Shown here: positions 10,889 through 32,220 of the stretch, piece by piece
How positions within the stretch are numbered: the first letter of the stretch is position 1
Layout of the letters: the number at the start of each line of letters is the position of its first letter
Origin: a virus
Virus record (IMG/VR): IMGVR_UViG_3300034190_001701
Coordinates: 1-32,220 of that record
Strand: one strand, 5' to 3'
Length of the DNA: 32,220 nt
Notes under the pieces: generated by a model
The model's database searches: none
What the model was told of the DNA's origin: nothing
Seen by the model: the letters and a program-made list of their open reading frames with translations, nothing else
Program-made: the position numbers and the translations under genes

Positions 10889-11638
10889 CTAACTACCTAT
10901 TTCACCAAAAGGATTTATTTCGGTGAAGTCTAAAATGTCACCTGCAGATTCTTGAGTAATAAAGTTTGTATTATCAGTATTTGCAGTTGATTTTTGTGCT
11001 GCATAATCTTCGTTAATTAAACTACTACCGTCCTCAAGTAAGAACAAATCTCCAGTTTCAAGTTCAATTTGATGAACCAACATATCAATATTTTGTTCTT
11101 CATATACGTCATCAAGTGCGTCAATTCCAGTTTTAATGAGTTCAGAGCTGTATTCAAATAGTTCACATTCTAATTTAAATGTGTATATTTTTCCTAACTG
11201 ATAAAAAGGGTTTTGAAATTCTACGTATCTAATCTCAAACAAAGATCCTGTCTTCTCAAAAAATAGTAAATCACCTTCAGCTGGTCTTGCAGCTAGTTGA
11301 AAAGTACCGCTAGATGTAAATACCAAATCTTCCCATCTGCGTTTTGCTAAAACAAAAGTTGCTTTATCTCGTATTTCAATACCAAACTTACTAAACAGCT
11401 CACCCTCTCCTTCGTATCCATCTACATTTTCAAGATACATTTCCAATGGATATGCCTGAGTAAATTTACTCAGCGTATCTTCGTCAAATATAGTGTCTTG
11501 ATCTACAAGAGTGCGAGGTAGATAATATACGTCATGCCCGTATATTTTGAGGCTTTCGATAACAAGGTCTTCTACTAGACGTTGTTCGCCCGTAGTGCCG
11601 CTTGTGTTACCGCTTTGAAAATAGAAATTAGTGGGCAT
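10889..11638 (-). CDS. 14: Neck protein gp14
   Basis: Head completion/neck protein that, with gp13, closes the filled head and provides the tail-joining surface. It is 249 aa (T4: 256). The N-terminus MPTNFYFQSGN, then EQRLVEDLVIESLKIYGHDV, YYLPR and DTIFDEDTLSKF (about 18-60), is the conserved gp14 signature. YEGEGELFSKFGIEI (74-88) and the YQLGKIYTFKLECELFEYS segment near 145-165 also fit. It is flanked by gp15 (2 bases apart) and gp13 (4 bases), as in T4. Confidence 0.92.
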   Translation of the reverse strand: MPTNFYFQSGNTSGTTGEQRLVEDLVIESLKIYGHDVYYLPRTLVDQDTIFDEDTLSKFTQAYPLEMYLENVDGYEGEGELFSKFGIEIRDKATFVLAKRRWEDLVFTSSGTFQLAARPAEGDLLFFEKTGSLFEIRYVEFQNPFYQLGKIYTFKLECELFEYSSELIKTGIDALDDVYEEQNIDMLVHQIELETGDLFLLEDGSSLINEDYAAQKSTANTDNTNFITQESAGDILDFTEINPFGEIGS

Positions 11639-17222: not shown

Positions 17223-17936
17223 TTATCTCTCAGAGAATATCCATCCATATGTTGAATTATAATACACTAAATTTGTAGCCGCACCATCAACATCTATAGT
17301 TAAATCTGCAGCCGCGCCGTCTATATTTGACCCATTTCTTGCTATTGTTATATTGTTTGTTGCTGCATTACTAGCACCATCAATAATAGCAACCTCATCT
17401 CCCAAACCGGGCGATGCAGGAAGAGTGATTGTTACTGTTGAAGAACTTACATCTACTATCAATCTATCTCCGGCTGAAGCTGTATATGCTGATGATTTTT
17501 CTGTCCATGCAGACAAACCACCTCCACTTCCCCCTGATTGATTACTCCAGGATAATACTCCGCTACCATTTGTTGTTATTACTTGTCCGTTGTTTCCATC
17601 TGATGCAGGAAACTGCTGTGTACCTATTTTAAATGTAGATGTTTCTATGTCACTTGCTACTAAATTATTAAATGTTGCACTAATATCAGTGCCAGAATCA
17701 GCTATTGCTCCTAAATCAAAATTTTCTGTAATAGTATCTGTAACCGCACCTAAGTCACCATTCAGTCAATAAGACTGTGTGGTTTCTTGTGCTAATGTTA
17801 CAATAGTGCCATCAGTTTTTTTAGAGTACAGTTTAGCGTCTGCTAAGTTTACCGCCAGTTCACCAACAGCAAGGTCACTTGCTCCGGGCGCTGAAGAAGC
17901 AGTCTCACTTCTTTTTAACTGTATTACTGTTGACAT
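17223..17936 (-). pseudogene. Tail-fibre gene interrupted by an in-frame TGA at codon 57
   Basis: One continuous reading frame of 237 sense-length codons runs from ATG 17936 to the stop at 17223, broken only by TGA at 17768-17766. Before it: MSTVIQLKRSETASSAPG...KLYSKKTDGTIVTL, the fibre N-terminal module also found at 19786 and 21506. After it: LNGDLGAVTDTITENFDLG, then FPASDGNNGQ, a Gly-rich linker, and a C-terminal beta domain (GDRLIVDVSSSTVTITLPAS ... YYNSTYGWIFSER). There is no shift of frame and no decay elsewhere. The start overlaps the 616-aa gene's stop (TAATG). A TTG at 17516 after a Gly-codon GGAGG run could restart a 97-aa C-terminal product. It could be a true nonsense mutation, a split gene, readthrough or a base error. 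Confidence 0.8.
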
Positions 17937-19786
17937 TAGTTCAGCCTAGTACCTGATGAATCATAAACTACTATATCTACTAGTGTATCCCAATCTGTAG
18001 ATGAAGCTCCAATTAACCTAGTAGTAGATCCTGCAGGACAATCAATCGCTGCATTTGCACTACCGCCGTTAATAGTTCCACTTGTATTAGGATAAATTTT
18101 TATGTTTACACTAGTATCATTCTTAACTGTATAAGTCACACCTGCTGAAGCAGTGGGAAGTTTTACTCCCTGATTGGCTGATGCAGTTGTGACAACATTA
18201 AATGTTTTACTTAGAGCAGTTGCTCCTGACTGATCTGAACCCGCTGCTGTTATAGAAGTATTATTTCCAACAGTCATGTCGTTTGTTAATACTAAGGAAT
18301 CAAGAGCAAGTCCCGATCCTGAAGCTGATATTGAAGCTCCTCCGAGTTCTATAGAGCTACCACTCAAATACAAATCTCTCCATTTTGCACCCGATGAACC
18401 TAAGTCATAAGTTACGTCAGCGCCAGGTAAAACGTGTCCTGTTACTGTAACATCGCCACCTGCTGTAATTGTGCTAGAAGCAGAAATTGTAGTAAATGAA
18501 CCTGCAGCTGCTGTGGTACCTCCAATTACTGTATTATCAATCGTACCGCCATCAATGTCAGGAGTATCAATATCTGGTGACGTTAGTGTTTTGTTTGTTA
18601 AAGTATCTGTTGTTGCTCTACCAACCAACGTATCTGTAGACGTTGGCATAGTAAGTGTTACATTACCGCTATAGGCAGAGTGCGCTGCTGATTGTAGTTG
18701 TGTATAGTGAGCATTAGACGATTCACAATAAAATTTGATATTAGAAACAGAACCACTATTTTTAAGAACAATCTCACCTGATTGAATGTCAACATTACCA
18801 TCTAGTCTTACAAGTCCGGCGCCGTTTGGAGTAATAGCAATATTACCGTTGGAAGTGCTGACAATGGCATTGCCATTTACGTCTAGATCACCTCCTAACT
18901 GTGGTGTAGTATCCTCAGAAACATTTGCTAAAAATGTTGAACCAGAATCATTTTCAGTTACAATATCGTAATAGTTACTACCATCTTCAGTAACTTGCCA
19001 TTTATCATCTGTTTCATTCCATCGTAAAGCTACGTTTGTAGATGTTCCTCTTTCTACTTCTATACCTGCATTTTGACTAGGTGTGCCTGACTCATTATTG
19101 TTAAGCACAATAATATTGTCATCTATTGTAAGTGTCTCTGAATTTACAGTAGTGGTTGTACCTGAAACTGTCAAGTTTCCTGTTACTGTTAAGTTGCCTG
19201 TTGCAGATATGTTTGTTGAAGTAATATCATCTGAAGTCAGAGTACCATCGACTTGAACATTATTAAATTGAACATTCGAGGCAGTGCCTACTGCTTGACC
19301 TATACTAATTACACCAGAAGAAAATGTTACACCAGTTCCGCCTGAAAGATAACTTTCTACATCCGAATCTGCATACTGTGTAATTGTTGTAGCTATTGTA
19401 CCACTTGAAATTGTAATACCGGTGCCTGCACTAAAATGCGCTCGCACTTCTGAAGCACTTGAACCTGTGTATGTTATTACACCTGTTGAATTATCATATG
19501 CTAAAGAACCATCGCCACCTGAATCTGTTACACTTACAGCTGCTCTAGATCTAGCATCAGTGTAGTATAAATTGCTACTACCTTCTGAAACATTATCAGT
19601 ATCTAGTCCTGATGCACCTGATAAATTACTACCGCTTGCAAGCGCTAGTTCAAAACCACCTGCTGTAGATCCATCGTGTACAACCAGAGTATCCTTTGTT
19701 GTATTAACGGTAACTTCGCCTAAAGCACCCGTAAAAGACGAGTGCTCGGCTGTAGTTCCCCTTCTAAGTTGTAATACTGTAGGCAT
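17936..19786 (-). CDS. Tail-fibre-like structural protein, 616 aa
   Basis: A Thr/Ser/Gly/Asn-rich fibre protein. The N-terminal module MPTVLQLRRGTTAEHSSFTG...GEVTVNTTKDTLVVHDGST (1-45) is the head domain shared by fibres in this cluster. The middle (about 190-270) holds ATGNLTVTGNLTVSGTTTTV...IDDNIIVLNN and GIEVERG, also found in the 502-aa fibre. TLTNKTLTSPDIDTPDIDGG is a common fibre shaft segment. Residues 511-616 form a C-terminal module nearly shared with the 192-aa protein at 28854, both ending SSGTRLN. It probably forms a trimeric fibre. Its stop overlaps the next start (TAATG). Confidence 0.85.
   Translation of the reverse strand: MPTVLQLRRGTTAEHSSFTGALGEVTVNTTKDTLVVHDGSTAGGFELALASGSNLSGASGLDTDNVSEGSSNLYYTDARSRAAVSVTDSGGDGSLAYDNSTGVITYTGSSASEVRAHFSAGTGITISSGTIATTITQYADSDVESYLSGGTGVTFSSGVISIGQAVGTASNVQFNNVQVDGTLTSDDITSTNISATGNLTVTGNLTVSGTTTTVNSETLTIDDNIIVLNNNESGTPSQNAGIEVERGTSTNVALRWNETDDKWQVTEDGSNYYDIVTENDSGSTFLANVSEDTTPQLGGDLDVNGNAIVSTSNGNIAITPNGAGLVRLDGNVDIQSGEIVLKNSGSVSNIKFYCESSNAHYTQLQSAAHSAYSGNVTLTMPTSTDTLVGRATTDTLTNKTLTSPDIDTPDIDGGTIDNTVIGGTTAAAGSFTTISASSTITAGGDVTVTGHVLPGADVTYDLGSSGAKWRDLYLSGSSIELGGASISASGSGLALDSLVLTNDMTVGNNTSITAAGSDQSGATALSKTFNVVTTASANQGVKLPTASAGVTYTVKNDTSVNIKIYPNTSGTINGGSANAAIDCPAGSTTRLIGASSTDWDTLVDIVVYDSSGTRLN
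17939..18256 (-). repeat. Fibre C-terminal module, copy 1 (616-aa protein)
   Basis: Encodes the last 106 residues, from SITAAGSDQSGATALS to SSGTRLN. By eye roughly three quarters of residues are identical to the end of the 192-aa protein (28857-29174). The two copies lie about 11 kb apart on either side of the glycosyltransferase island. Confidence 0.8.
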
Positions 19787-21530: not shown

Positions 21531-21797
21531 TTAAAAGGTTCCGCCATCTAAATTTGTGATATTTCCTTGAATCTCAGCTGCGGGTTGGGCTTCCCAGTTA
21601 CCACTAGTGCCATCATAGACTAGGGTATATCCATTTTGTACTCCTGTAACATCTACACCGGTCAGTCCTTCAAATTTTGTAGAGGTTTGCGTTACTGACT
21701 GTGCGGTTACTATTGTACTTACCCTACTAGCTGGACTTGTACTAGAAACTTTTGTTGTTGTAGTTGAGCTTTGCGGTAAAGTAACGCTGAGTGCCAT
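21531..21797 (-). CDS. 88-aa fibre-associated protein
   Basis: Small Ser/Thr/Val-rich protein; ATG 21797 overlaps the stop of the 108-aa gene (TAATG). Residues 1-40 are a low-complexity Thr/Ser run. The C-terminal half has VDVTGVQNGYTLVYDGTSGN followed by WEAQ, a small fibre motif (NGYxLVYDxxxxxWxA) found in phage structural proteins. It ends NLDGGTF, resembling the 502-aa fibre's CGTF end. It is likely a short structural subunit or a connector for the neighbouring fibres; the exact role is unknown. Confidence 0.7.
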   Translation of the reverse strand: MALSVTLPQSSTTTTKVSSTSPASRVSTIVTAQSVTQTSTKFEGLTGVDVTGVQNGYTLVYDGTSGNWEAQPAAEIQGNITNLDGGTF

Positions 21798-22123
21798 TAC
21801 TTAGTTACCTCCGGAGTTACAGATACTATTCCTTCTAAAATTCGTAATGTCTCTACACTTGAAGCTATCTCTACATCATATACATATCTTCCCGCCTTTA
21901 TAGCAGACGTTTGTGTCGCAGATAATGAAATAGTTATTTCTCCAGTTAAATCAACTTTAGCTGTTGTAAAGTTTGTAGCAGTTGAAGTATAATAACTTTT
22001 TCTCATCTGAGATGTTACTGTATAATCAGACAAATCTTTAGCAGTACCGTCAGTATTACTGAGAGTAAGGGAAAAAGAAAAAGTTTGTCCCTGGTCTATT
22101 ACTATGTTTTCTATAGTAGCCAT
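21797..22123 (-). CDS. 108-aa beta-sandwich virion protein
   Basis: Small protein of a type seen in phage structural clusters. The IDQGQTFSFSLTLSNTDGTA opening (about 9-28), LSDYTVTSQMRKSY, GEITISLSATQTSAIKAGRY and VYDVEIASS give regular beta strands, as in Ig-like baseplate or fibre adaptors. There are no cysteines and no membrane segment. It is the first leftward gene after the divergent promoter region, with a perfect late promoter 32 bases upstream. Its ribosome site is weak. Function as an adaptor or connector is inference. Confidence 0.72.
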   Translation of the reverse strand: MATIENIVIDQGQTFSFSLTLSNTDGTAKDLSDYTVTSQMRKSYYTSTATNFTTAKVDLTGEITISLSATQTSAIKAGRYVYDVEIASSVETLRILEGIVSVTPEVTK

Positions 22124-22133
22124 ATTAGATCTT

Positions 22134-22141
22134 TATAAGTA
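22134..22141 (+). promoter_or_regulatory. Candidate late promoter for the rightward glycosyltransferase block
   Basis: The plus strand reads TATAAGTA, one base from the TATAAATA octamer, 38 bases upstream of ATG 22179. It is the only promoter-like sequence in the 55-base divergent gap that faces right. A single mismatch makes it uncertain. Confidence 0.4.
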
Positions 22142-22154
22142 TTATTGTTCTTTT

Positions 22155-22162
22155 TATTTATA
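22155..22162 (-). promoter_or_regulatory. T4-type late promoter for the tail-fibre bank
   Basis: Perfect minus-strand TATAAATA 32 bases before the 108-aa gene, in the gap between divergent genes. It probably drives 108-aa, 88-aa and 502-aa genes and onward to the large fibre as a long late transcript. Confidence 0.68.
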
Positions 22163-22178
22163 ACATTTTAAAACTGCA

Positions 22179-22868
22179 ATGAAAACTATTTTGACCTTGA
22201 AATACGGTGATAAGTACAGTTCTGATGATGTGAACCGTATTTTTATAGATACATCAGGTAAGTATAATTATGTTTGTGTGACCGACAATCCTGAGGGATT
22301 ATTTTCAAATATTTATACAATACCTATTGAAGGCGAACCTGATGGTCATTGGGAAAAAGTAAAACTTTTTCAATACTATTTTGGCAAGACTCTTTACTTA
22401 GATTTAGATGTTGCAATACAAAATGATATAGAGCATTTATTTTCTTATCTTGACAAAACACCTGTGATCTGTTATACTTATTGGAAAGATAGAGGTGAAA
22501 AACATGGTATGTCTATACATGATTTTCCGTATCATAAAGATGAAAAGTGGGCGTACAATTATCTAAGCAACTTTAACTCAAGCGTAATGATGTGGGAAGA
22601 TGCAAGACATATATATGATTATTGGAAAAAAGATCAAGACTACTATATGGTAAAGTATGCAGGTGACGATAGATTCTTATACCATGAAAATTTTACATTT
22701 GAACATTGGCCAAGAGGTGAAATATACTCATTTAAATTTGACGGAGCAAAGTATCAACCTGATGCTACTATAGCACTGCTGAACGGACAATCAGACTTCC
22801 CAAATTTAGTTGAAGAATATTATGATGAACTTCGTATGTATAAAATGGGGCGAAAAGTACACGCCTGA
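22179..22868 (+). CDS. Glycosyltransferase-like protein, paralogue 1 of 4
   Basis: First gene of the rightward block, 229 aa from ATG 22179. It has the family opening (TLKYGDKYSSDDVNRIF), a Rossmann-like start with CVTDNPEGL near 33-41, and the DxD motif in TLYLDLDVAIQND (Asp75/Asp77), which binds the metal and sugar-nucleotide in GT-A enzymes. Then come a predicted acceptor region and FKFDGAKYQPDATIALLNGQ near the end. It is somewhat diverged from the other three: the opening lacks Trp and Cys. It ends in TGA, overlapping the next gene by 44 bases. Donor and acceptor are unknown. Confidence 0.75.
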   Translation: MKTILTLKYGDKYSSDDVNRIFIDTSGKYNYVCVTDNPEGLFSNIYTIPIEGEPDGHWEKVKLFQYYFGKTLYLDLDVAIQNDIEHLFSYLDKTPVICYTYWKDRGEKHGMSIHDFPYHKDEKWAYNYLSNFNSSVMMWEDARHIYDYWKKDQDYYMVKYAGDDRFLYHENFTFEHWPRGEIYSFKFDGAKYQPDATIALLNGQSDFPNLVEEYYDELRMYKMGRKVHA

Positions 22869-23577
22869 CTATGTGAATAATTTGTATCGTATGGTAGAAA
22901 GAAACTATACGAAACCCTTTACTTTCACTTGCTACACAGATGACACTGACGGATTAGAGTGTGATACACACCCTATACCTGATGACGGTGTTCTGCACCC
23001 TAAACATTGGTTCGGTAAAGAAGCATATTGTTGGGATAGAGCAAAGTTTCTTGTTTTTAATTCACAAGAATGGTTAGGGTATGAAGGAAAGTGGTGTTAT
23101 TTTGACCTTGATGTTATAATTCAAAACAATATAAACGAAATAGACATACTCGCAAATAAACCTAGACTAGTGCATTGTCGTTGGCAAGATCCCAAATTAA
23201 ATCATAACAGACTGTTTATAGAAATAAGAGGCACCTTCTATAATTCTAGTATGATGTTATGGAACGGTGAACAGTTAAAACATATATACCATGATGTGTT
23301 AATTAACGACAAAATGGTTTTTACAACCTTTTTTAAAGGTTCAGACAACTATCACTATTGGAGACAACGAAACATTTGGAAAAATATACCTTATGATTGG
23401 GTGTATTCTTATAATAGAGGAATGACTTTTCCTGATGATTTAGATGAAAAGTTATATAGACCTAATGCAAAAGTTTGTATATTCAATAAGGATTTGACAC
23501 CTGACCCTAAAGCAAAGAAACAAATTAAACTTGAAGATTTAAAAGACGAGGTATTGCTTTCATTATGGGAGGGATAA
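22825..23577 (+). CDS. Glycosyltransferase-like protein, paralogue 2 of 4
   Basis: About 250 aa. I choose ATG 22825 (MNFVCIKWGEKYTPDYVNNL) because this opening aligns with the other paralogues; an ATG at 22822 and a TTG at 22810 are alternatives. Motifs are FTCYTDDTDGLE (35-45), HPKHWFGKEAYCWDRAKFLV (58-77), and the DxD in YFDLDVIIQNN (Asp94/Asp96). SDNYHYWRQRNIW and WVYSYNRGM (C-terminal third) are shared with paralogue 3. These indicate a GT-A-fold transferase using a nucleotide sugar. The start lies inside paralogue 1 and the end overlaps paralogue 3 by 13 bases. Confidence 0.78.
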   Translation: MNFVCIKWGEKYTPDYVNNLYRMVERNYTKPFTFTCYTDDTDGLECDTHPIPDDGVLHPKHWFGKEAYCWDRAKFLVFNSQEWLGYEGKWCYFDLDVIIQNNINEIDILANKPRLVHCRWQDPKLNHNRLFIEIRGTFYNSSMMLWNGEQLKHIYHDVLINDKMVFTTFFKGSDNYHYWRQRNIWKNIPYDWVYSYNRGMTFPDDLDEKLYRPNAKVCIFNKDLTPDPKAKKQIKLEDLKDEVLLSLWEG

Positions 23578-24392
23578 GAGTAAATTACGTCTGTTGTAAA
23601 TGGGGTACTAAATATGGACCACACTTTGTTAATAAACTTTATAACATGGCCAAACGAAATACCGATAGCAGTAAATTTGATTTTCACTTTTATTGTTATA
23701 CTGATATTATTGAAGGTCTTGAGCCTGACATTAAGGTTATTGAGTTTCCTGATATTCCCAATATTCATCCTAAGTATTGGTTTGGTGATGATAAGTTCAA
23801 GTACGGTATGGCTAGGTGTTGGGATCGTCCTAAAACTTTTGTTTTTAATACTCATAATTTTGCTAGTGACAGTCCAACTGGTCGCTTCGTTTTTTTAGAT
23901 TTAGATGTAATCATACAGGGTGACATGGAACCTATCATTATGTATGATTTAGAGCGTCCTACTAAACTTAGAAGTTGGTGGCAGGACCCTCGACCAATGA
24001 AAACTAGACAATTTAGATTAGCTCACGGTGCATACACTAATGGTTCTTGTCAGGTTTGGGGTGACGATCAAACAGAAATCATTTGGCAAGATGTGTTACA
24101 ACACCAAGAACGTATTTGGTATACTTTTACAGATGGTACTGACAATTACCATAGTTGGCGTTGGGGTATGTTTAGTAAAAATCCACTTTGGGGACACTTT
24201 CCAAGTTGGATGGCATACTCATATAACAGAGGCAGAGATTGGGAAGCCGGAGACTTAGAAGTAGATAAATATCGCCCAGATTCTATACTATGTGTTTTTA
24301 ATATTGACCTACTTCCTTTTGAAGATTCAAGTAGAGGCAAAACAAAACAAGATCAATTAGCAGATCCAAATCTATTGGAGCATTGGAAATGA
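23565..24392 (+). CDS. Glycosyltransferase-like protein, paralogue 3 of 4
   Basis: A 275-aa protein from ATG 23565. The opening VNYVCCKWGTKYGPHFVNKL, FYCYTDIIEGLEPD (42-55), IHPKYWFG (67-74), CWDRPKTFVFN (85-95) and the DxD in FLDLDVIIQGD (Asp112/Asp114) run in the same order as paralogue 2, its closest relative. LRSWWQDPRP and TDNYHSWRWG follow, then WMAYSYNRG. It ends in TGA with the next ATG overlapping (ATGA). It is a GT-A-type glycosyltransferase by motif and paralogy; the sugar is unknown. Confidence 0.78.
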   Translation: MGGIRVNYVCCKWGTKYGPHFVNKLYNMAKRNTDSSKFDFHFYCYTDIIEGLEPDIKVIEFPDIPNIHPKYWFGDDKFKYGMARCWDRPKTFVFNTHNFASDSPTGRFVFLDLDVIIQGDMEPIIMYDLERPTKLRSWWQDPRPMKTRQFRLAHGAYTNGSCQVWGDDQTEIIWQDVLQHQERIWYTFTDGTDNYHSWRWGMFSKNPLWGHFPSWMAYSYNRGRDWEAGDLEVDKYRPDSILCVFNIDLLPFEDSSRGKTKQDQLADPNLLEHWK

Positions 24393-25072
24393 TTAACATT
24401 TATACTGTGAAATGGGGTTTGAAATATAATTCAGATCACGTTAATAAGATACACGAAATGTGTAAAAAATATATTACTGAGGAGTTTGACTTTTATTGTC
24501 TAACTGATTGGCCTCATGGATTAAATCCAGACATATTAACTATAGATTTTCCTGAAGATAACTATTATGAAAAATGGTGGAATAAACTATATTTGTTTGA
24601 TCGTTCTATTGTATCACAAAAGGGTGAAAAATTATTTTTAGATTTAGATGTTGAGATACAAAATAATATTGACTGTATTGTAAACTATGATCCAGGTGAT
24701 AGTTTAACTTTTATCAGAACTTGTTGGCACAATCTTAAAAAAATGAAACGTGATGTTGTTGACATTCCTTGGGCATATACTGAATTAAACTCATCTGTGT
24801 TACGTTGGAACGACCGACTAAATATTGATAAGATTACTAAGTTTGTGCGTGACTATCCTTCGCAAATCTTTTTTTATTACCGTGGATTAGATAATTTATT
24901 TGGACACCAGCGTGAAAGATTATTAAAAATAGAACACTTTCCTGACGGTTGGGTATACAGTTATAATAACGGTTATATATGGCCTACTGACATTGACCAA
25001 CATAAGATAAGAGATAACCTACTTATATGTTTATATGATTCTATGGAGCGACCAGAAGATGTTAAATTATAA
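24389..25072 (+). CDS. Glycosyltransferase-like protein, paralogue 4 of 4
   Basis: A 227-aa protein. I use ATG 24389 (MINIYTVKWGLKYNSDHVNK), which overlaps the stop of paralogue 3 (ATGA), rather than TTG 24383. It has FDFYCLTDWPHGLNPD (33-48), WWNKLYLFD (63-71), the DxD in LFLDLDVEIQNN (Asp85/Asp87), and GWVYSYNNGYIWP at the end, matching WVYSYNRG of the others. It is a GT-A-type transferase by motif. It overlaps the next gene by 14 bases, so all five rightward genes form one translationally linked unit. Confidence 0.78.
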   Translation: MINIYTVKWGLKYNSDHVNKIHEMCKKYITEEFDFYCLTDWPHGLNPDILTIDFPEDNYYEKWWNKLYLFDRSIVSQKGEKLFLDLDVEIQNNIDCIVNYDPGDSLTFIRTCWHNLKKMKRDVVDIPWAYTELNSSVLRWNDRLNIDKITKFVRDYPSQIFFYYRGLDNLFGHQRERLLKIEHFPDGWVYSYNNGYIWPTDIDQHKIRDNLLICLYDSMERPEDVKL

Positions 25073-25712
25073 TTTTTTGAATAACTATAAAAATTGGGGT
25101 GATGGTTTAGACAAAATGAACCATGAAATGCCTTATAAAATGGAAGATTTTCGTAAATCATTGAATCCAAATAGTATGGAAGCCAGTATTTGGCTTGTAG
25201 AAGAATTACAAAAACACGTTGAAAAAGACGATTTAAATATTACTGTTCTTAATTCCTGGCTAGGATTTCCTCTTGTTCCGTTACTATGTGAAAATTTATC
25301 TGTCGAAAAAATAAATCTTATTGATGTAGACAATGATGCTTTAGAATTGTCTAAAGTATTCAATAAGTATTATGCTGACACAGGTATTGATTTGAATCAT
25401 ATTAACTGGGACATTCCTTTTGCTTTCCATGATATAAATGCCCTGAACACAGATGTAGTTATATCGTTATCAGCAGAAACAATGTATCCATTAGAAGAAA
25501 TGACTACCGCAAACCCTGATTGTATTTTTGCTGTACAATCATCTAATATTTTTAAAGAAATGTATGGTATTAACTGTGTTGACACTATTGACAATCATAT
25601 AAAAAATGTTGGCATCAAAAAGACTTTATATAAGGACTCAATCAAACAAAAATACTGGACCTTTGATGGACAGAACGAATTTGATAGGTTTATGGTTATT
25701 GGAAAGAAGTAG
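25059..25712 (+). CDS. Methyltransferase-like protein (class I Rossmann, degenerate)
   Basis: A 217-aa protein from ATG 25059, inside the end of paralogue 4. The strand-loop-helix series NITVLNSWLGFPLVPLLCEN (about 60-80), INLIDVDNDALELSKVFN (85-102) and TDVVISLSAETMYPLEEM (about 130-147) resembles a class I SAM-dependent methyltransferase, with Asp-Val-Asp in the place of the ribose-binding acidic residue. The Gly-rich loop is unusual: Asn-Ser-Trp-Leu-Gly instead of Gly-x-Gly-x-Gly. It could methylate a sugar or protein made or altered by its neighbours, or be inactive. Its end overlaps the convergent oxygenase gene by 17 bases. Confidence 0.55.
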   Translation: MLNYNFLNNYKNWGDGLDKMNHEMPYKMEDFRKSLNPNSMEASIWLVEELQKHVEKDDLNITVLNSWLGFPLVPLLCENLSVEKINLIDVDNDALELSKVFNKYYADTGIDLNHINWDIPFAFHDINALNTDVVISLSAETMYPLEEMTTANPDCIFAVQSSNIFKEMYGINCVDTIDNHIKNVGIKKTLYKDSIKQKYWTFDGQNEFDRFMVIGKK

Positions 25713-26352
25713 CGTCTTCTTCAGAAATATCCTCAATCATACTACGCCAAATCTCTAGATGTGGTACAACAAACCCTAAAGTGATACGAGGCTCATACGA
25801 ACCAGCACAATGATAGTAAACTTTATCAGGCTCTCTGCCTCTACCATAATATCCTACTTTACAAGTCCATCCAGGCTTGTCTTTCATTGTGACTATTTCT
25901 TTTGTCAAAGGATCCCTATATCTAAAAAATCCATTTCCTTCTTTAGAGTATGACAAAAGAATATTATATCCATTGGCATTCCAGTTGTTATGCCAACCCA
26001 TGAAACCATTGGCAGGGTAAAATACATTTACTGCTTGATTACGAGCACCTAAGTACGCACATAATTCTTCTGCTAATTTATTTCTTTTTTCTTTATGTTC
26101 TTGCGGTGAATTTTCAGATGTGTTTATATCTACAGACAAGACTCTCTCAGGAAATCCTATGTGTTGTCCATCTTTATCAACTATCTCTTTCAAATACTCT
26201 TCACCGCAAGCCTCTTCTAACAGCATACCCTGATGCCTATCTTCACTATGGGCTATTTCTACGAGTTTAGTCAAGTCAGACTGAAAAAACCAATCACTAT
26301 AATCAGTGAGTATTTTTATTACTTCTTCATTTTTTATATCTATCCATCTCAT
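25696..26352 (-). CDS. 2OG-Fe(II) oxygenase-like protein
   Basis: A 218-aa protein, ATG 26352 overlapping the stop of the glycosyltransferase upstream (ATGA). The C-terminal half fits a double-stranded beta-helix oxygenase: MGWHNNWN (His121, Asn123), NILLSYSKEGNGFFRYRDP, GWTCKVGYYG, then VYYHCAGSYEPRITLGFVVP (His181, Arg189). The spacing suits His-x-Asp/Glu...His plus a 2OG-binding Arg, but the middle ligand is Asn, not Asp. Similar H-x-N proteins occur in marine phages as I recall. The target may be a protein side chain or a sugar. The start-stop overlap says it is made with the glycosyltransferase. Confidence 0.65.
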   Translation of the reverse strand: MRWIDIKNEEVIKILTDYSDWFFQSDLTKLVEIAHSEDRHQGMLLEEACGEEYLKEIVDKDGQHIGFPERVLSVDINTSENSPQEHKEKRNKLAEELCAYLGARNQAVNVFYPANGFMGWHNNWNANGYNILLSYSKEGNGFFRYRDPLTKEIVTMKDKPGWTCKVGYYGRGREPDKVYYHCAGSYEPRITLGFVVPHLEIWRSMIEDISEEDATSFQ

Positions 26353-27059
26353 GGATTCAATTCACCTTTAGGTATCGTGTGATGATATAATACTATCTCT
26401 TGTCCCTGTAGTTCTTCATAGTGATAACCATTAATAAAATTCCAACGTGCATCAGGTTCTTCTACATAACCCCATTTGACATCATGTCCCCCGTATGTTA
26501 GTAACCTCCACATAGTAAACGTATCCCATTTTACACAATCAGGAGGATAGTGCATAACATCAAAATCAGGTTTGCGTTGTTCTAAGTATTCAGTCCACCA
26601 TGCTCCCATCAAATCCATTACAGCAGGCGTTTTACGATAAACAAAAAAGCCACAATGACAAGTCATTTCCTCTGTGTCAGACAGCTTAGTTAGTTTAGCA
26701 TTATATGGTCTGTTTTTTGTAAATACTATGTCTTTATCATCGGGAAGTATGTCGAAAATATTTTTTATATCTTCGTGTTCACACATCATATCTGCGTCAA
26801 GATAAGCTGTAATATCATATGGTGTTTTTTCAAGAGCCCAAAGTTTTGCTCTGATATGATCCGGTATACCCTCAGTAATTACATTATTGAATAACTTAAA
26901 ATCTTCGGGTTGTACCCATTCTTCATGGGTAAAAAAAGTAATATTAGCGTCAGACCAAAAGTCTCTTATTGATTCTGCTAACAGTTTAGCATACTTATAA
27001 AAGCCTTTTTGTTTTGAGGCTACAATTACAAAACCTTTAGTTAGATTCTTCTTCGGCAT
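26349..27059 (-). CDS. Glycosyltransferase (GT8-like, minus strand)
   Basis: A 236-aa protein from ATG 27059 (MPKKNLTKGFVIVASKQKGF); a TTG at 27065 would add two residues. GFVIVASKQKGFYKYAKLLA and FFTHEEW are the first Rossmann strands. AYLDADMMCEHEDI holds the DxD (Asp88/Asp90), and HCGFFVYRKTPAVMDLM and the late LYHHT histidines resemble GT8/GT-A families that use UDP sugars. It is only distantly like the four rightward paralogues. Its start lies in the end of the 161-aa gene, and its stop overlaps the oxygenase, linking these genes. Confidence 0.75.
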   Translation of the reverse strand: MPKKNLTKGFVIVASKQKGFYKYAKLLAESIRDFWSDANITFFTHEEWVQPEDFKLFNNVITEGIPDHIRAKLWALEKTPYDITAYLDADMMCEHEDIKNIFDILPDDKDIVFTKNRPYNAKLTKLSDTEEMTCHCGFFVYRKTPAVMDLMGAWWTEYLEQRKPDFDVMHYPPDCVKWDTFTMWRLLTYGGHDVKWGYVEEPDARWNFINGYHYEELQGQEIVLYHHTIPKGELNP

Positions 27060-27522
27060 TTTCAATTTCCTGCATCAATAATATAGAACAATATGCTTGA
27101 ACTTCCATTATACTTTTAGATTTTCTCATAAGTCTTTTTAATTTAGTATTTTTTGATTCTTTTACAGCATCAATTTCAAATGCAGATAATTTTGCTGCAA
27201 ATAATGCTTCTTGTTTTGCTCTAGATTGTTGAGCTTCTCTTCGTTCAGCTTGTTGTTTTATTCTTGTATTTCTTCTGTCCAAACCTCTTTGAGTGTTTTC
27301 ATCTATTTCTTCTTCGGTAAATTGTTGTAAAACAGCAATCATGTCAGGATTAGTGCCATCCTTATCCTGAATAGATGCCATAGACTCCTTACCATTAGGA
27401 AATTTTATAGTAACAATTAAATGCTTATTTTCCTTATTAGACCAATAAGGATTAAGATATTGTTTTGCCGGAGGGATGTCTTGTATCGTTGTGACTTCAG
27501 AATCAACAGATATCTCTGTCAT
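27037..27522 (-). CDS. 161-aa coiled-coil protein of unknown function
   Basis: I do not recognise this protein. The N-terminal third has PPAKQYLNPYWSNKENKHL and a strand pair (LIVTIKFPNGKESMASIQD). The rest is charged and helical: FTEEEIDENTQRGLDRRNTR, a Gln/Arg/Ala-rich stretch, and NTKLKRLMRKSKSIMEVQAY near 125-145. There are no signal or membrane segments. GGAG lies before ATG 27522. It sits between the YTG-repeat fibre and the glycosyltransferase. A fibre assembly factor is conceivable from place and coiled-coil character, but not shown. Confidence 0.7.
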   Translation of the reverse strand: MTEISVDSEVTTIQDIPPAKQYLNPYWSNKENKHLIVTIKFPNGKESMASIQDKDGTNPDMIAVLQQFTEEEIDENTQRGLDRRNTRIKQQAERREAQQSRAKQEALFAAKLSAFEIDAVKESKNTKLKRLMRKSKSIMEVQAYCSILLMQEIENAEEESN

Positions 27523-27568: not shown

Positions 27569-28843
27569 TTAAGCAGTCCTCACCCACAGTTTGATCGTAG
27601 AAACATTTTCTGTTGTAGCTTGAATAGTTGCTGCTGTATATGCACCGGTGTACGCACCTGTAAATGTTCCTGTGTATGCACCTGTGTAAGTTCCAGAGTA
27701 TGCAGAAGTTCCTACAAAATTTCCAGTAAAAGCTCCTCCAAACTCGTTTGTATACACACCAGTATATGTTTTAGCACCTGTGAAAAATCCTGTGAAATTT
27801 CCAGTAAAAGAACCAGTGTAAGAGGTTGGGCCGGCAAATCCCGCAAAAAACGGTGTAAAGGCTTGTGAATAAACGCCTGTGTAAATTCCAGAGTAATTAT
27901 CAGTTCCTACAAAATTTCCTGTAAATTCTCCTGAGTAGGACCCCGTATAACTACCAGTGTACGTTTTTGCTCCAGTAAAACTGCCAGCAAAGTCAGCACT
28001 AAAAGTATTGTCGAAATTACCTGTAAAACTACCCGCATAATCTGAATCTGCCAATTCGTGTCTTGTATCAGTGAATCCAGCAGTGTCACCCATTTGTGTC
28101 CAAGTGCCTGTTTCTGATGGGGTGCCTGACTGTACAAGATAACAACCCACACCAGGTGTGGTTGCGTAATCTTCAACAATTCTATTTCTAAAATTCGGAA
28201 CCATTTGTTCAATTTGAGCTGCGGTCATCATTTTGACACCGCTATCATAAGTCAAAGATGCTAAATCACTATTTGCTGATGTAGTCGGAGCAGTTTTTTG
28301 CCAAAGGTATATAGTGTTTGTATCACCATCTACTTGAGTATCTGTAATAGTGTAGCGAGATGTCCAAGTACCACCAGAGGGTGAAGAGGCTGCTAAGTGA
28401 AATTGTCCTACAGTGTAGTCAGTTTCAGTAACCATATCAGTGACAACTTTATCTAATATGTCTGTGTCTAACTCAGCGTCTGTAAACTCATTTAGTGAAT
28501 TAGTATCATATCCTAAAGCTCTATTAGTAATACTTTCCGAGGCAGCTGAAGTAACTTGTTTGAAATAGTAGGTAGTAGTCGATAAAGTTCCTGCTGCTGG
28601 GTGTGTACCGATAGCCTCTGTTCTTTTAGTATCAGCAAAAGTTCCTATCGCTGAACCACTAAGAGCATTTGCAGTGTCCACATTGAGATCCCCTGTTAAG
28701 GTTCCATCCCAATCGTCTGCATATTTGTTTGTTATCACATAGGAAAGATACTGATTAATTTCAGTATCAGTCATTTCCTGCAAGCCCTGAAAATTTGAAG
28801 AGCTAGGAGGACTTCCTGATGCTTTTACTCTTAATGGTCGCAT
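27569..28843 (-). CDS. Fibre protein with [YF]-x-G-x tetrapeptide array
   Basis: A 424-aa protein, ATG 28843. Residues 1-60 include SPPSSSNFQGLQEMTDTEIN and QYLSYVITNKY, an opening I associate with marine T4-like structural proteins. Residues 60-265 are a beta-rich region. Residues 268-404 are almost wholly tetrapeptides of the form Tyr/Phe-Thr/Ser-Gly-x (for example FTGN, YTGS, YSGE, FVGT). The array contains a 66-residue super-repeat (TGAKTYTG at 289 and 355). It ends with a short cap (TIKLWVRTA). It is probably an extended tail or whisker fibre. The Thr/Ser/Tyr-rich array is a conceivable glycan acceptor. Confidence 0.8.
   Translation of the reverse strand: MRPLRVKASGSPPSSSNFQGLQEMTDTEINQYLSYVITNKYADDWDGTLTGDLNVDTANALSGSAIGTFADTKRTEAIGTHPAAGTLSTTTYYFKQVTSAASESITNRALGYDTNSLNEFTDAELDTDILDKVVTDMVTETDYTVGQFHLAASSPSGGTWTSRYTITDTQVDGDTNTIYLWQKTAPTTSANSDLASLTYDSGVKMMTAAQIEQMVPNFRNRIVEDYATTPGVGCYLVQSGTPSETGTWTQMGDTAGFTDTRHELADSDYAGSFTGNFDNTFSADFAGSFTGAKTYTGSYTGSYSGEFTGNFVGTDNYSGIYTGVYSQAFTPFFAGFAGPTSYTGSFTGNFTGFFTGAKTYTGVYTNEFGGAFTGNFVGTSAYSGTYTGAYTGTFTGAYTGAYTAATIQATTENVSTIKLWVRTA
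27632..28042 (-). repeat. Tetrapeptide array, residues 268-404 of the 424-aa fibre
   Basis: A 12-base-period coding repeat giving aromatic-x-Gly-x units (about 34), with imperfect units and two approximately 66-residue super-repeats. Period four with Tyr/Phe at position 1 and Gly at 3 differs from collagen's Gly-x-y. Confidence 0.8.
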
Positions 28844-28853
28844 TTACTTATCC

Positions 28854-29432
28854 TTAATTCAATCTTGTTCCGGACGAATCATAAATCACTGTTTCTACCA
28901 TAGTGTTCCAATTTGTAGAAGTAGTACCGATTAGTTGTGCTGTAGCTCCTGCAGGAAGATCTATTGCAGCATTAGCCGTTCCGCTGTTTATTGTTCCTGA
29001 GGTATTAGGATATATTTTTACATTGACAGATGTTCCATTGACTACATTATACCACAGGCCTGCCGCTGCTGTAGGAAGTTTTACACCTTGGTCTGCTGTT
29101 GCAGTTGTAACAGCATTGAAAGTTTTAGTCAATGCTGTTGCTCCTGATTGGTCAGTACCTGCCGCTGTCACCGCCGCAGTTATAGATGCTGTGTGGTCTC
29201 CAGTTGATGTTAAATTCACCGTAGCTGTATTACCTGAAGTATCTACAGTAAATAACGAACCATTTACATCAATACCTGCATCTAAAGAGGCGAGTCCAGA
29301 AGCATCCAAAGTACCAAAAGCAGCATTGTTACCTGATTCATATTTATCGGTATTTAAATTGGTAAAGTTAGTATCCACCTCATTATTTGTGAGAGGACTA
29401 CCTTTTGTTGATCTTAATGTTATTGTTGACAT
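28854..29432 (-). CDS. Short tail-fibre-like protein, 192 aa
   Basis: Fibre-type protein with the opening MSTITLRSTKGSPLTNNEVD and TNFTNLNTDKY (1-30), a structural-protein N-terminus common in marine T4-like phages. Residues 30-80 are a Gly/Ala/Ser-rich shaft. Residues 87-192 form a C-terminal module nearly identical in plan to that of the 616-aa fibre, with the same SSGTRLN end. It is therefore a short fibre using a shared tip or trimerisation domain. A late octamer lies 79 bases upstream, inside the preceding gene. Confidence 0.82.
   Translation of the reverse strand: MSTITLRSTKGSPLTNNEVDTNFTNLNTDKYESGNNAAFGTLDASGLASLDAGIDVNGSLFTVDTSGNTATVNLTSTGDHTASITAAVTAAGTDQSGATALTKTFNAVTTATADQGVKLPTAAAGLWYNVVNGTSVNVKIYPNTSGTINSGTANAAIDLPAGATAQLIGTTSTNWNTMVETVIYDSSGTRLN
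28857..29174 (-). repeat. Fibre C-terminal module, copy 2 (192-aa protein)
   Basis: Encodes residues 87-192, from AVTAAGTDQSGATALT to SSGTRLN, paired with 17939-18256. The central VKIYPNTSGTIN block matches the KIYPNTSGTIN of copy 1. Confidence 0.8.
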
Positions 29433-29436
29433 TTAA

Positions 29437-29709
29437 CTATCCTTTGGAATTTATAGCATCTAAAATTTGTTTCAAAGAATCCTTTATCTCAGTTACTTCG
29501 TTCTTAAGATTATTTATATCCTTAGAATACTGTTCTATTTCTTTTCTATTGTCTCTTCTAATTTCTCTAGCACGTTTATACTCAGTGAGGGCTTGATTAT
29601 CTGTGTTTAACAACGCTTTAGAATGAACACTTCTGAGATAACCTTTTTCCTCAGTTTTCACCCAAGCATCACCGTGCTTCAAAGTTTTTGATATTTCTCC
29701 TAAATTCAT
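29437..29709 (-). CDS. 90-aa helical/coiled-coil protein
   Basis: Small protein of unknown function, starting at ATG 29709 two bases after the large structural gene. Residues 1-35 carry HGDAWVKTEEKGYLRSVHSK. Residues 45-88 are charged and heptad-like (REIRRDNRKEIEQYSKDINN, then LKNEVTEIKDSLKQILDAI), a predicted coiled coil. A late octamer occurs inside the upstream gene at 29800. It may be a virion connector or assembly protein; the sequence does not decide. Tight packing in the structural operon supports it as a real gene. Confidence 0.72.
   Translation of the reverse strand: MNLGEISKTLKHGDAWVKTEEKGYLRSVHSKALLNTDNQALTEYKRAREIRRDNRKEIEQYSKDINNLKNEVTEIKDSLKQILDAINSKG
29511..29518 (-). promoter_or_regulatory. 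Candidate late promoter inside the 90-aa gene
   Basis: Perfect minus-strand TATAAATA 79 bases upstream of the 192-aa fibre start. It is within coding sequence, so a chance match is possible. It faces the right way. Confidence 0.4.
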
Positions 29710-29711
29710 AA

Positions 29712-32220
29712 TTATGCCTGTAGCGCAAATGCCCTCAGTCCTGCTGATTTTGGTATCTTAACACTAGTAGAATTAGTGTGTACAATTTTAATTGCAAAGT
29801 ATTTATATGACGCAAAAGTAACTGTTGTAGTTGCAGGAGTTCCTAAAGTAGCCGCCACACTAGGCGAACCGCCTGTCAATGTCGCAGTGATAGTTCCTCC
29901 AGTGTAACCTCTACCTGGGTTAGTTATCTTAATTTCTGATACTGCTCCTCCACTCAATATAGCTTCTGCTGTTGCTCCATATCCATCACCAGTGTGTGTT
30001 ATAGTTACTGTAGGAGCTGAACTATATCCTGAACCACCAGATGAAACTGCAATAGATGAAATTCTATCTACATCATATTCAAATATACCAGAACCATTTA
30101 GTCCAGAAGTAGTAGATCCTTTCGCAGGTAGTTTGTAAACATATTCTGCAAATGTTTCTGTGGACACTAGAGGTGATGCTTCAAGTTCTAGTTGTTTCCA
30201 ATAAATATCATTATTCATTTCACCGTCATCTTCTTTAGACATAAACTTGCCGTAAACACGAACACCGCCTGTTGATGGTATTGCGCTATCTAAATAAACT
30301 TTCATGTCCTCTGCATCTTGTCCGTCAGCTAAAACTATAGTCTTAGAAATATATTTCATAGTAGCACTGCCGCCAAATCTTACTTCCTCGTTTGACGCAT
30401 CATTGTTAATAATATTTTTGTATACACCCATTGCCATACTAGACATATCTATCATAGGTGAAATATTGTTATTCTCTGATCTCAAAACGAATTTAGCTGT
30501 TGCTGATTTGTTTCCAGAATAACTAGCAGCTTCATTTGAATAACTGTAAATTGTTTTTTCTGTATTCAATTCTACTGTTTTGTTGATTGGCATATCTACA
30601 TATGTGGAGCCCACTGAACCCGCTCCTGTATCAGTCAAAGCAATAGTTCTAGTAATTGTTCCTTTACCGCTAGGATTAATTTCAGATACTTTATTAACAT
30701 AAGCACTCACAACACGATCTTCTATAGAACTTATTGTTCCATACGTATTAGTAGTGCCTACCAGTGTTTGTGCAGGATTAGATACAGTATTTGATGAGTA
30801 AAATCTACCATCAGTAACTTGTACTTTAAAAGTTTTGTACTTTGCTTCAATGAATTTTACAACACCTCTATTCAGTGTAGCAGTAACCACAGCCGCCGTT
30901 GTCGGAGAACCACCTGAAAGTGTAACTGTAATACTAGATTCTGAAGTAAATCCTGAACCTGGGTCAGTCAAAGTTATTGCTGTAACTGCTCCTGCTGTGA
31001 GTGTAGCTGTTGCAGTTGCACCTGTTCCTAATCCATTGGCATCTGCTATAGTTACTGTTGGAGCAGATCCGTATCCTGCTCCTGCATTGCTGATAGTAAA
31101 AGTAAACCCGTTTATAGCATCTCCTAAACTGAAACCAGATTTTGCTCCTGTTTCCCATCCACTATCAGAAAATTTCAACCAATCGTAATTTTTAGGTTGT
31201 ACTGTAAGCGTTTGATCTTCGCCTGTCTTAAACGCACACCTAGTGACAACAAACATTAGATCCTCGTCTTGATGAGGCGTCCAAGTTTTATTATTTGCTG
31301 AAGTAAAGAATACACCACCATGAGCTTGTTTTGTGATTGTCTGAGTGGTTCCAAAAACAGTTTCACCGAGCTTACCTGTGTATGCTACATAGTTTGGATC
31401 ATCAGCATCTGGTACTAACACAATTGCATATTCTTTATCATTTTCTAAATGCACCAAGTTTCTGAATTTGAAAGTAGTTGCAATAAAATTATGAGTGCCG
31501 TCAGCATTAGTGTTAGAACAAAATACTTCACTTCTTCTTAAATGTCTACTACCATTTGGCACAACTGTAGTGCTAGGTGAACCATTTACAACTTCTCTTA
31601 TTTGTAATGTAACACCGTTATTGTTTCCTTCAGCAGGAACGTGTCTAAAGTAAACTTTAATGTTAGGAACAAACATACCACCTGTCAATCCGGTTACAAA
31701 GAAAGTTTGTGCTATAGGATCTGCTCTACCACAGTTTTCATCAATAAAAAAGTCTCCATATTCCAAATTTATATCAAAGTCGTAATTAATTGTTCCTGAT
31801 GCTATTGTAGTACCTACTTGTGCAGCAGTTGTTGCTATAGATGTTAAATTAGGATCTGTTGAAGCATTGCTTAATGTAGCTATGTATGGATCATATCCTC
31901 TATCTGAAGATACTAACAATTCAATAATAGATTCAGTTGCCCCTTCAGTGTCAGTATCAAAATCACCTTGGTGACCGAATCTTTGACCCTGAGTTTGATC
32001 TATAAATGTAGTAAGGACGTCTGTATCAAATCTTGCCACAATTGTATTTTGAGACCCTGACAATGCGTTTTGTAAAGTAACTGAGTCGTGAACAACTACA
32101 TCGGTTACAGCCGCTTCTTCTTTTACACAAATACCTAATGTGGAATTGTAATAGTATCCTTCCTCACATATAGGATCTGCTGCAGGCACACAACTTGCAT
32201 CTTGCACCGTAACAGTATAA
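29712..32220 (-). CDS. Large virion structural protein, C-terminal part (cut by window edge)
   Basis: The frame is open to the right edge, so the true start is beyond 32220; the GTG at 32207 (831 aa from there) is not necessarily the start. From GTG-based numbering: a Cys-containing segment (Cys6, Cys14, Cys27), [19 protein letters not shown] near 153-171 with a following GG[13 protein letters not shown], an approximately 200-residue beta domain, and G-x-G-Y-x3-P-T-V-T-I modules at about 365-445 and 715-790. The DP-x-AQTF motif is common in large structural proteins of marine T4-like phages (DUF4815-type, by recollection). It is probably a tail or baseplate-fibre protein. Confidence 0.78.
29800..29807 (-). 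promoter_or_regulatory. Candidate late promoter inside the large structural gene
   Basis: Perfect minus-strand TATAAATA 91 bases upstream of the 90-aa gene start, in coding sequence and facing the right way. Moderate chance of coincidence in AT-rich DNA. Confidence 0.35.
29838..30065 (-). repeat. G-x-G-Y beta module, distal copy in the large structural protein
   Basis: Encodes about residues 715-790, containing [13 protein letters not shown] and [13 protein letters not shown]. It pairs with 30873-31115 and the insert in gp15. Confidence 0.7.
30873..31115 (-). repeat. G-x-G-Y beta module, proximal copy in the large structural protein
   Basis: Encodes about residues 365-445, containing [12 protein letters not shown] and [14 protein letters not shown]. 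It closely resembles 29838-30065; each module ends with SGGSP or TGGSP and an Ala-rich step. Confidence 0.7.

Follow-up and report, generated by a model that had tools for sequence, protein, structure and literature searches.

A fibre-linked glycosyltransferase and oxygenase-like gene pair with a slot for a glycosyltransferase cassette in a T4-like phage

The window studied here, the whole 32,220-base IMG/VR virus record IMGVR_UViG_3300034190_001701, derives from a T4-like phage and carries seven adjoining genes for putative modification enzymes (positions 22179-27059), which the original prediction had described as a single island inside the tail-fibre cluster. Comparison with related loci shows that the locus is not a homogeneous seven-gene island. 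It consists of a conserved pair, encoding a GT8-like glycosyltransferase and an oxygenase-like protein (OX), that belongs to a fibre operon, and an independent cassette of four glycosyltransferase genes (GT1 to GT4) and a methyltransferase-like gene (MT) that occupies a defined slot. We consider it a virion-modification locus, whose products probably hydroxylate and glycosylate the adjacent repeat fibre in the cytoplasm late in infection.

Gene order and conservation of the locus

All seven open reading frames (ORFs) were recovered where they had been predicted, and neighbours overlap within each block. On the plus strand lie GT1 (22179-22868, 229 amino acids, aa), GT2 (22822-23577, 251 aa, with an ATG start common to relatives), GT3 (23565-24392, 275 aa), GT4 (24389-25072, 227 aa) and MT (25035-25712, 225 aa), and on the minus strand OX (25696-26352, 218 aa) and the GT8-like gene (26349-27059, 236 aa). 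The expected fibre genes are present on both flanks. At one side a repeat fibre (27569-28843, minus) is separated from the GT8-like gene by the gene of a small charged protein of 161 aa (27037-27522, minus); at the other, an LtfC-like fibre-assembly gene (21797-22123, minus; phrog_1084, E 1e-25, and phrog_3304, 'L-shaped tail fiber protein assembly', E 4e-21) forms the far edge of the slot.

To place this arrangement among relatives, 95 non-redundant OX loci were compared, 80 of which had enough upstream sequence and 72 a detectable LtfC gene. The core order, all on one strand, is repeat fibre, 161-aa gene, GT8-like gene, OX and LtfC-like gene: upstream of OX the GT8-like gene was found in 79/80 loci, the 161-aa gene in 79/80 and the repeat fibre in 78/80, and LtfC followed OX in 72/72. 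This core is an old unit. The content of the OX-LtfC slot differs among the 72 loci: 34 have no glycosyltransferase there (the spacing being just 49-171 bases among the loci listed), three have a single same-strand glycosyltransferase gene, one has two, and 34 contain the inverted GT1-GT4-MT block, the type of arrangement to which the window belongs. The GT8-OX pair is thus found without the other five genes in 34 of 72 loci, and the idea that the island travels with fibre genes holds for the core pair, whereas the GT1-GT4-MT block accompanies it in 34/72. A recent insertion of this block in the present phage was rejected, as the block is fixed in 34/72 loci and its four glycosyltransferases represent separate old clades.

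The dN/dS ratios against relatives were about 0.05-0.07 for all seven genes, rough values given that synonymous sites were near saturation, indicating strong purifying selection and hence that the genes are maintained. Since every gene is under such selection and the order is fixed in relatives from many samples, the seven-gene observation is not a matter of chance. Among 50,697 phage records, only phage C48C1 matched the repeat fibre, the 161-aa gene, the GT8-like gene and full-length OX, and these homologues are adjacent to each other there. The protein encoded immediately before the 161-aa gene, GT8 and OX in C48C1 (L001:1-6709; OQ984149.1 141011-151054) is huge, about 3,350 aa by coordinates, with NYTG/NYSR/RTST repeats; a partial literature search turned up no publication on this phage.

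The cassette could also be read as functionally separate, with GT8 and OX acting on the fibre and GT1-GT4-MT acting on another target (host glycans or another virion protein). This explanation, which overlaps with fibre modification by all seven products, gains from the inverted orientation of the block, from its absence in half of the loci and from the entry of unrelated genes (ThyX-like, ligase-like) into the same slot in oceanic relatives. However, the order and place of GT1-GT4-MT are fixed in 34 diverse loci, and relatives of these glycosyltransferases lie within the fibre operon, on the same strand, in four others. We therefore hold a full separation of function to be possible but rather unlikely.

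Two further observations concern relatives of the locus. In some of them the GT block has unrelated genes at its edges (L018:8628-9917, L106:10267-11556, L051:9191-10297 and L051:12824-13495), which encode a secreted-looking protein of 429 aa and, by eye, ATP-dependent ligase-like and ThyX-like proteins. Moreover, contigs deposited as metagenome-assembled genomes of Bifidobacterium breve and Muricauda (L198 and L199) bear this phage locus and are probably misbinned phage sequence.

Folds and motifs of the encoded proteins

GT1 to GT4 are paralogous to one another (BLAST E 3e-8 to 4e-55; GT2 and GT3 are 38% identical) that carry the motifs YLDLDV, YFDLDV, FLDLDV and FLDLDV, respectively. The DxD that had been noticed in them, D112-L-D114, is invariant in 47/47 aligned proteins, as is the DAD of the GT8-like protein (YLDAD in the window) in 30/30. 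Profile matches were modest: GT1 and GT4 matched phrog_1962 glycosyltransferase (E 8e-11 and 2.5e-9), the PF01501 (GT8) profile matched 6/47 members weakly (best 3.5e-5) with none for the GT3 of the window, and a GT3 profile against the PDB gave zero matches. GT3 is the most conserved gene of the GT1-GT4-MT block. Its AlphaFold2 model (predicted local distance difference test score, pLDDT, 86), built like the other structure model from an alignment of the window and viral-contig rows only, gave a VIA Z of 16.7 to GlyE (root-mean-square deviation, rmsd, 3.2; 211 aligned), followed by UGGT and LgtC (16.4 each), LARGE1 (16.2) and glycogenin (16.0), matches with Z within 1 of each other being counted as tied; WbbM was also among the neighbours. 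As judged by this model GT3 has the GT-A fold, in agreement with the original prediction, and the same fold is assigned to GT1, GT2 and GT4 by paralogy.

In a tree of 56 glycosyltransferases, GT1, GT2, GT3 and GT4 each formed a single supported group (support 100/100 for GT1, 99/97 for GT2 and 100/100 for GT4), with GT2 and GT3 as sisters, indicating that the four enzymes have diverged and are passed on as a set. The retention of four orthologous lineages next to each other suggests that each has a task of its own, and the addition of a different sugar by each would account for their joint inheritance. Between GT3 and GT2, some oceanic relatives encode proteins of about 495 aa (L047:12039-13538 and L051:13689-15182, minus strand) with a GT1-GT4-like N-terminus and, by eye, a C-terminus resembling a barrel of the radical-SAM/SPASM type.

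Since this is a T4-like phage bearing glycosyltransferases, glucosylation of DNA bases as in T-even phages was also considered. The alpha- and beta-glucosyltransferases of T4 itself are GT-B enzymes, unlike the GT-A fold found here, and the genes stand in a fibre context. In addition, T4-like cyanophages have yielded no evidence of modified or glycosylated DNA (PMC2984593). DNA glucosylation is thus very unlikely, and the preference for virion decoration over it, already expressed in the original prediction, is upheld.

The GT8-like family (30 members) produced weak PF00535, PF01501 and PF03407 matches; as these lie below the gathering cut-offs (PF00535, 17.8 against 23.3 bits), we name the gene GT8-like only. 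MT is a probable class I S-adenosylmethionine (SAM) methyltransferase-like Rossmann protein: its profile matched spermidine synthases (E 0.004), its family members gave weak Methyltransf_12/31 and Spermine_synth matches, and it is 26% identical to a 'putative methyltransferase' annotated in Pelagibacter phage Mosig.

Sequence searches with OX (profile against the PDB, Pfam, NCBIfam and PHROGs) returned nothing credible, and it was fold comparison alone that succeeded. The AlphaFold2 model (pLDDT 93.7) has a double-stranded beta-helix (DSBH) fold, with a VIA Z of 10.8 to PiuC (rmsd 2.9, 144 aligned), 10.2 to PHD2 and about 9.5-10.2 to prolyl hydroxylases in general. The matches, which include the AspH and P4H families and, by Foldseek, the mimivirus lysyl hydroxylase 6ax7, are well covered yet distant (about 12% identity). 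The predicted 2-oxoglutarate (2OG)-Fe(II) type was therefore borne out at the level of the fold; the canonical HxD/E...H metal triad is absent, Asn replacing the acidic ligand (H121-x-N123...H181...R189), and the chemistry is read from the fold, which is why we call OX oxygenase-like. The first ligand motif was HxN in 125/125 unique homologues (HNN in 115, HTN in 10); some of the search patterns included this motif, which favours its retention, most in the bacterial set, and other patterns did not. Across 39 diverse sequences, bacterial relatives included, just eight columns are invariant: Y112, P113, G116, W120, H121, N123, H181 and R189. H121 closes one strand of the model, H181 opens another and R189 opens the one after it, the layout expected for the proximal His, the distal His and the 2OG-binding Arg, and binding of 2OG is predicted. 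Activity of OX without the acidic ligand appears plausible by analogy, because two His suffice for AspH and the acid is missing from halogenases (PMC10947486).

Distant OX relatives were also seen in bacterial and phage genomes (L200-L207, e.g. L204:5148-5810 and L203:5776-6471). They share the pattern GYMGWHTN...FFRYRDP...WHxVYSxTxR, have no Pfam match in the OX region and, as judged by their sequences, constitute an unrecognised protein family; in L205 and L206 the gene comes after a fibre-like gene.

The repeat fibre, which we propose as the acceptor, is built of a tetrapeptide [YF]-[TS]-G-x, with 25 of its 33 aromatic residues followed by another aromatic at +4. In 99/110 loci, the ORF immediately 5' of the 161-aa-GT8-OX trio carried this motif at a level above the 99th percentile of control ORFs. 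The repeat part of 117 such fibres contains 25% Thr+Ser, 22% Tyr+Phe, 1.0% Lys and 1.6% Pro, so that the classical Lys and Pro hydroxylation targets are scarce and a collagen-style hydroxylation of the repeats is disfavoured. Tyr as the sole acceptor, as in glycogenin, is a weak candidate as well, since Phe replaces Tyr in some relatives (L278) while Thr/Ser persist. The 161-aa protein may be a fibre chaperone.

Late promoters, genome setting and the likely target

The T4 late motif TATAAATA occurs 11 times in the window against 3.7 expected, a number reached in 0/100 shuffles, and ten of the sites are on the minus strand, the strand of the structural genes. One of them (22155-22162, minus) faces LtfC and the downstream fibre genes, and beside it a late-promoter-like TATAAGTA (22134-22141, plus) is placed for GT1-GT4-MT. 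Another TATAAATA (29511-29518, minus) precedes the fibre gene 28854-29432, the repeat fibre, the 161-aa gene, GT8 and OX, and from its position would be the promoter of the repeat fibre-GT8-OX operon. At the slot edge, the minus-strand motif was found in 32/36 non-redundant regions (1.2 in shuffles) and, on the plus strand, a TATAARTW that faces GT1 in 21/36 (2.4 in shuffles, maximum 7). Conserved T4-type late promoter motifs therefore diverge from the slot edge, and late expression of both units is likely as predicted from them. Sigma-70 promoter-like sites (53 against 39 in shuffles) and a terminator scan of the window, which was at chance level, were not used. The fibre genes 17936-19786 and 28854-29432 have a common C-terminal domain (69% identity over 119 aa), possibly a duplicated or exchanged fibre tip.

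The window also encodes scaffold, protease, portal, sheath, terminase and neck proteins, every one of them from the minus strand. Its portal shares about 53% identity with the portals of Methylophilales phage Melnitz and the Pelagibacter phages Mosig and HTVC008M, indicating a lineage without a close isolate in the collection searched; a tRNA scan of the window found none, and hence tRNAs give no hint of the host. The locus is located between a VrlC homologue (29712-32207, 39% identity to Mosig VrlC) and the neck gene (10889-11638, minus), the same interval as the pelagimyophage host recognition cluster, which Zaragoza-Solas et al. described as a variable region with many GT8-type enzymes (PMC7029224).

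The published interpretation of those enzymes is that they change host O-chains (PMC7029224), and the main rival to fibre modification is accordingly that the enzymes encoded here alter host lipopolysaccharide or other surface glycans, blocking superinfection or helping progeny to escape. The lipopolysaccharide enzymes LgtC and WbbM among the structural neighbours of GT3, and sugar-biosynthesis-like genes in the Mosig cluster, are consistent with this. On the other hand, the genes are probably expressed late, they overlap with fibre genes and run in the same direction, and the core pair is hardly found away from the repeat fibre (78/80), a strict tie to one fibre type. Gtr-type O-antigen conversion involves a membrane flippase and a polytopic glycosyltransferase; none of the seven proteins has a transmembrane-like stretch (19-residue hydropathy 1.47 at most), and the window proteins searched yielded neither a flippase nor a sugar-nucleotide gene. 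Usual O-antigen conversion is not known to involve an oxygenase, and the presence of OX sets this locus apart from it. Modification of the host surface is on these grounds unlikely.

We favour modification of the repeat fibre by soluble enzymes because of the near-constant order from the repeat fibre to LtfC, the sole match in C48C1 with its adjacent genes, the co-directional extra glycosyltransferases in four loci, the late-promoter motifs pointing both ways from the slot, the lack of transmembrane-like stretches, the matches of GT3 to GlyE, LgtC, UGGT, glycogenin and LARGE1 and of OX to PiuC and prolyl hydroxylases, and the four orthologous glycosyltransferase lineages kept together beside repeats that are about 25% Thr+Ser. 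The genes, the folds of OX and GT3, the motifs, the conserved order, the selection and the promoter motifs are supported directly. Enzyme activity, order of steps, acceptor and purpose are as we infer them in the following scheme. Late in infection, the repeat fibre would be produced together with the small charged protein, the GT8-like enzyme and OX. Cytoplasmic OX would oxidise, probably hydroxylate, a residue in either the fibre or its glycan. The first sugar would be attached to the fibre by GT8, most likely at the Thr/Ser-rich tetrapeptide repeats. In this lineage GT1 to GT4, expressed from the divergent late promoter, would extend the glycan by one specific sugar after another, MT would methylate the product, and the glycan would change the stability, folding or receptor contact of the fibre.

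Several points weigh against fibre modification. Neighbouring genes need not share a substrate, and the inverted GT1-GT4-MT block could serve a separate function. OX, having no Asp/Glu metal ligand, may be inactive or carry out other chemistry. The GT8-like assignment is drawn from sequence alone and that of MT from weak profile matches, and the plus-strand TATAARTW motif is missing in 15/36 regions.

Comparison with known systems

The proposed role resembles that of mimivirus L230, a lysyl hydroxylase and glucosyltransferase for viral collagen-like proteins (PMC9614988), in that a virus supplies both a DSBH hydroxylase and a glycosyltransferase for a repetitive structural protein of its own. 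L230, however, is one fused protein with canonical Fe ligands that targets Lys in Gly-X-Y repeats, whereas the phage locus has separate genes, a His-X-Asn motif and proposed acceptor repeats in which Lys makes up about 1% and Pro 1.6%. A cytosolic prolyl-hydroxylase-like oxygenase followed by soluble glycosyltransferases that build the glycan stepwise is also the order of the Skp1 pathway. That pathway, known from Dictyostelium and Toxoplasma (PMC3515798, PMC11570480) and likened here, as to its glycosyltransferases, by description only, is eukaryotic and acts on one proline of Skp1. Mycobacteriophages Che8, Corndog and Myrna are described as glycosylating their own capsid and tail proteins with phage-encoded glycosyltransferases (Freeman 2023, cited in PMC12363180), which by description is what we propose here; the targets named in that account are capsid and tail tube, and that account, as far as consulted, mentions no linked oxygenase and no linkage to a repeat fibre. 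The pelagimyophage host recognition cluster shares the VrlC-neck region and GT8-type enzymes, but is described as variable, non-syntenic and serving host O-chain changes (PMC7029224), in contrast to the fixed-order module with an oxygenase-like gene found here.

Glycosyltransferases in this region of pelagimyophage genomes (PMC7029224) and phage virion glycosylation are thus already known, whereas the fixed fibre-glycosyltransferase-oxygenase unit, the glycosyltransferase slot and the His-X-Asn oxygenase family were absent from the family libraries and the literature searched, with partial coverage. Only tentatively can a dedicated pathway of aquatic T4-like phages be envisaged, in which an HxN DSBH oxygenase family primes repeat fibres or the first sugar, and five glycosyltransferases and MT build a defined, multi-sugar, methylated glycan at many sites.

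OX represents an uncharacterised putative oxygenase family with an unusual invariant residue at the predicted metal site and with bacterial members, and a fibre gene adjoining its enzymes makes a ready test system. If fibre modification is correct, these phages would glycosylate their own adhesins by a dedicated line of oxygenase and glycosyltransferases, as some giant viruses do with collagen-like proteins, and this would change the view of the glycosyltransferases in marine phage host recognition clusters, which are now taken as modifiers of host lipopolysaccharide.

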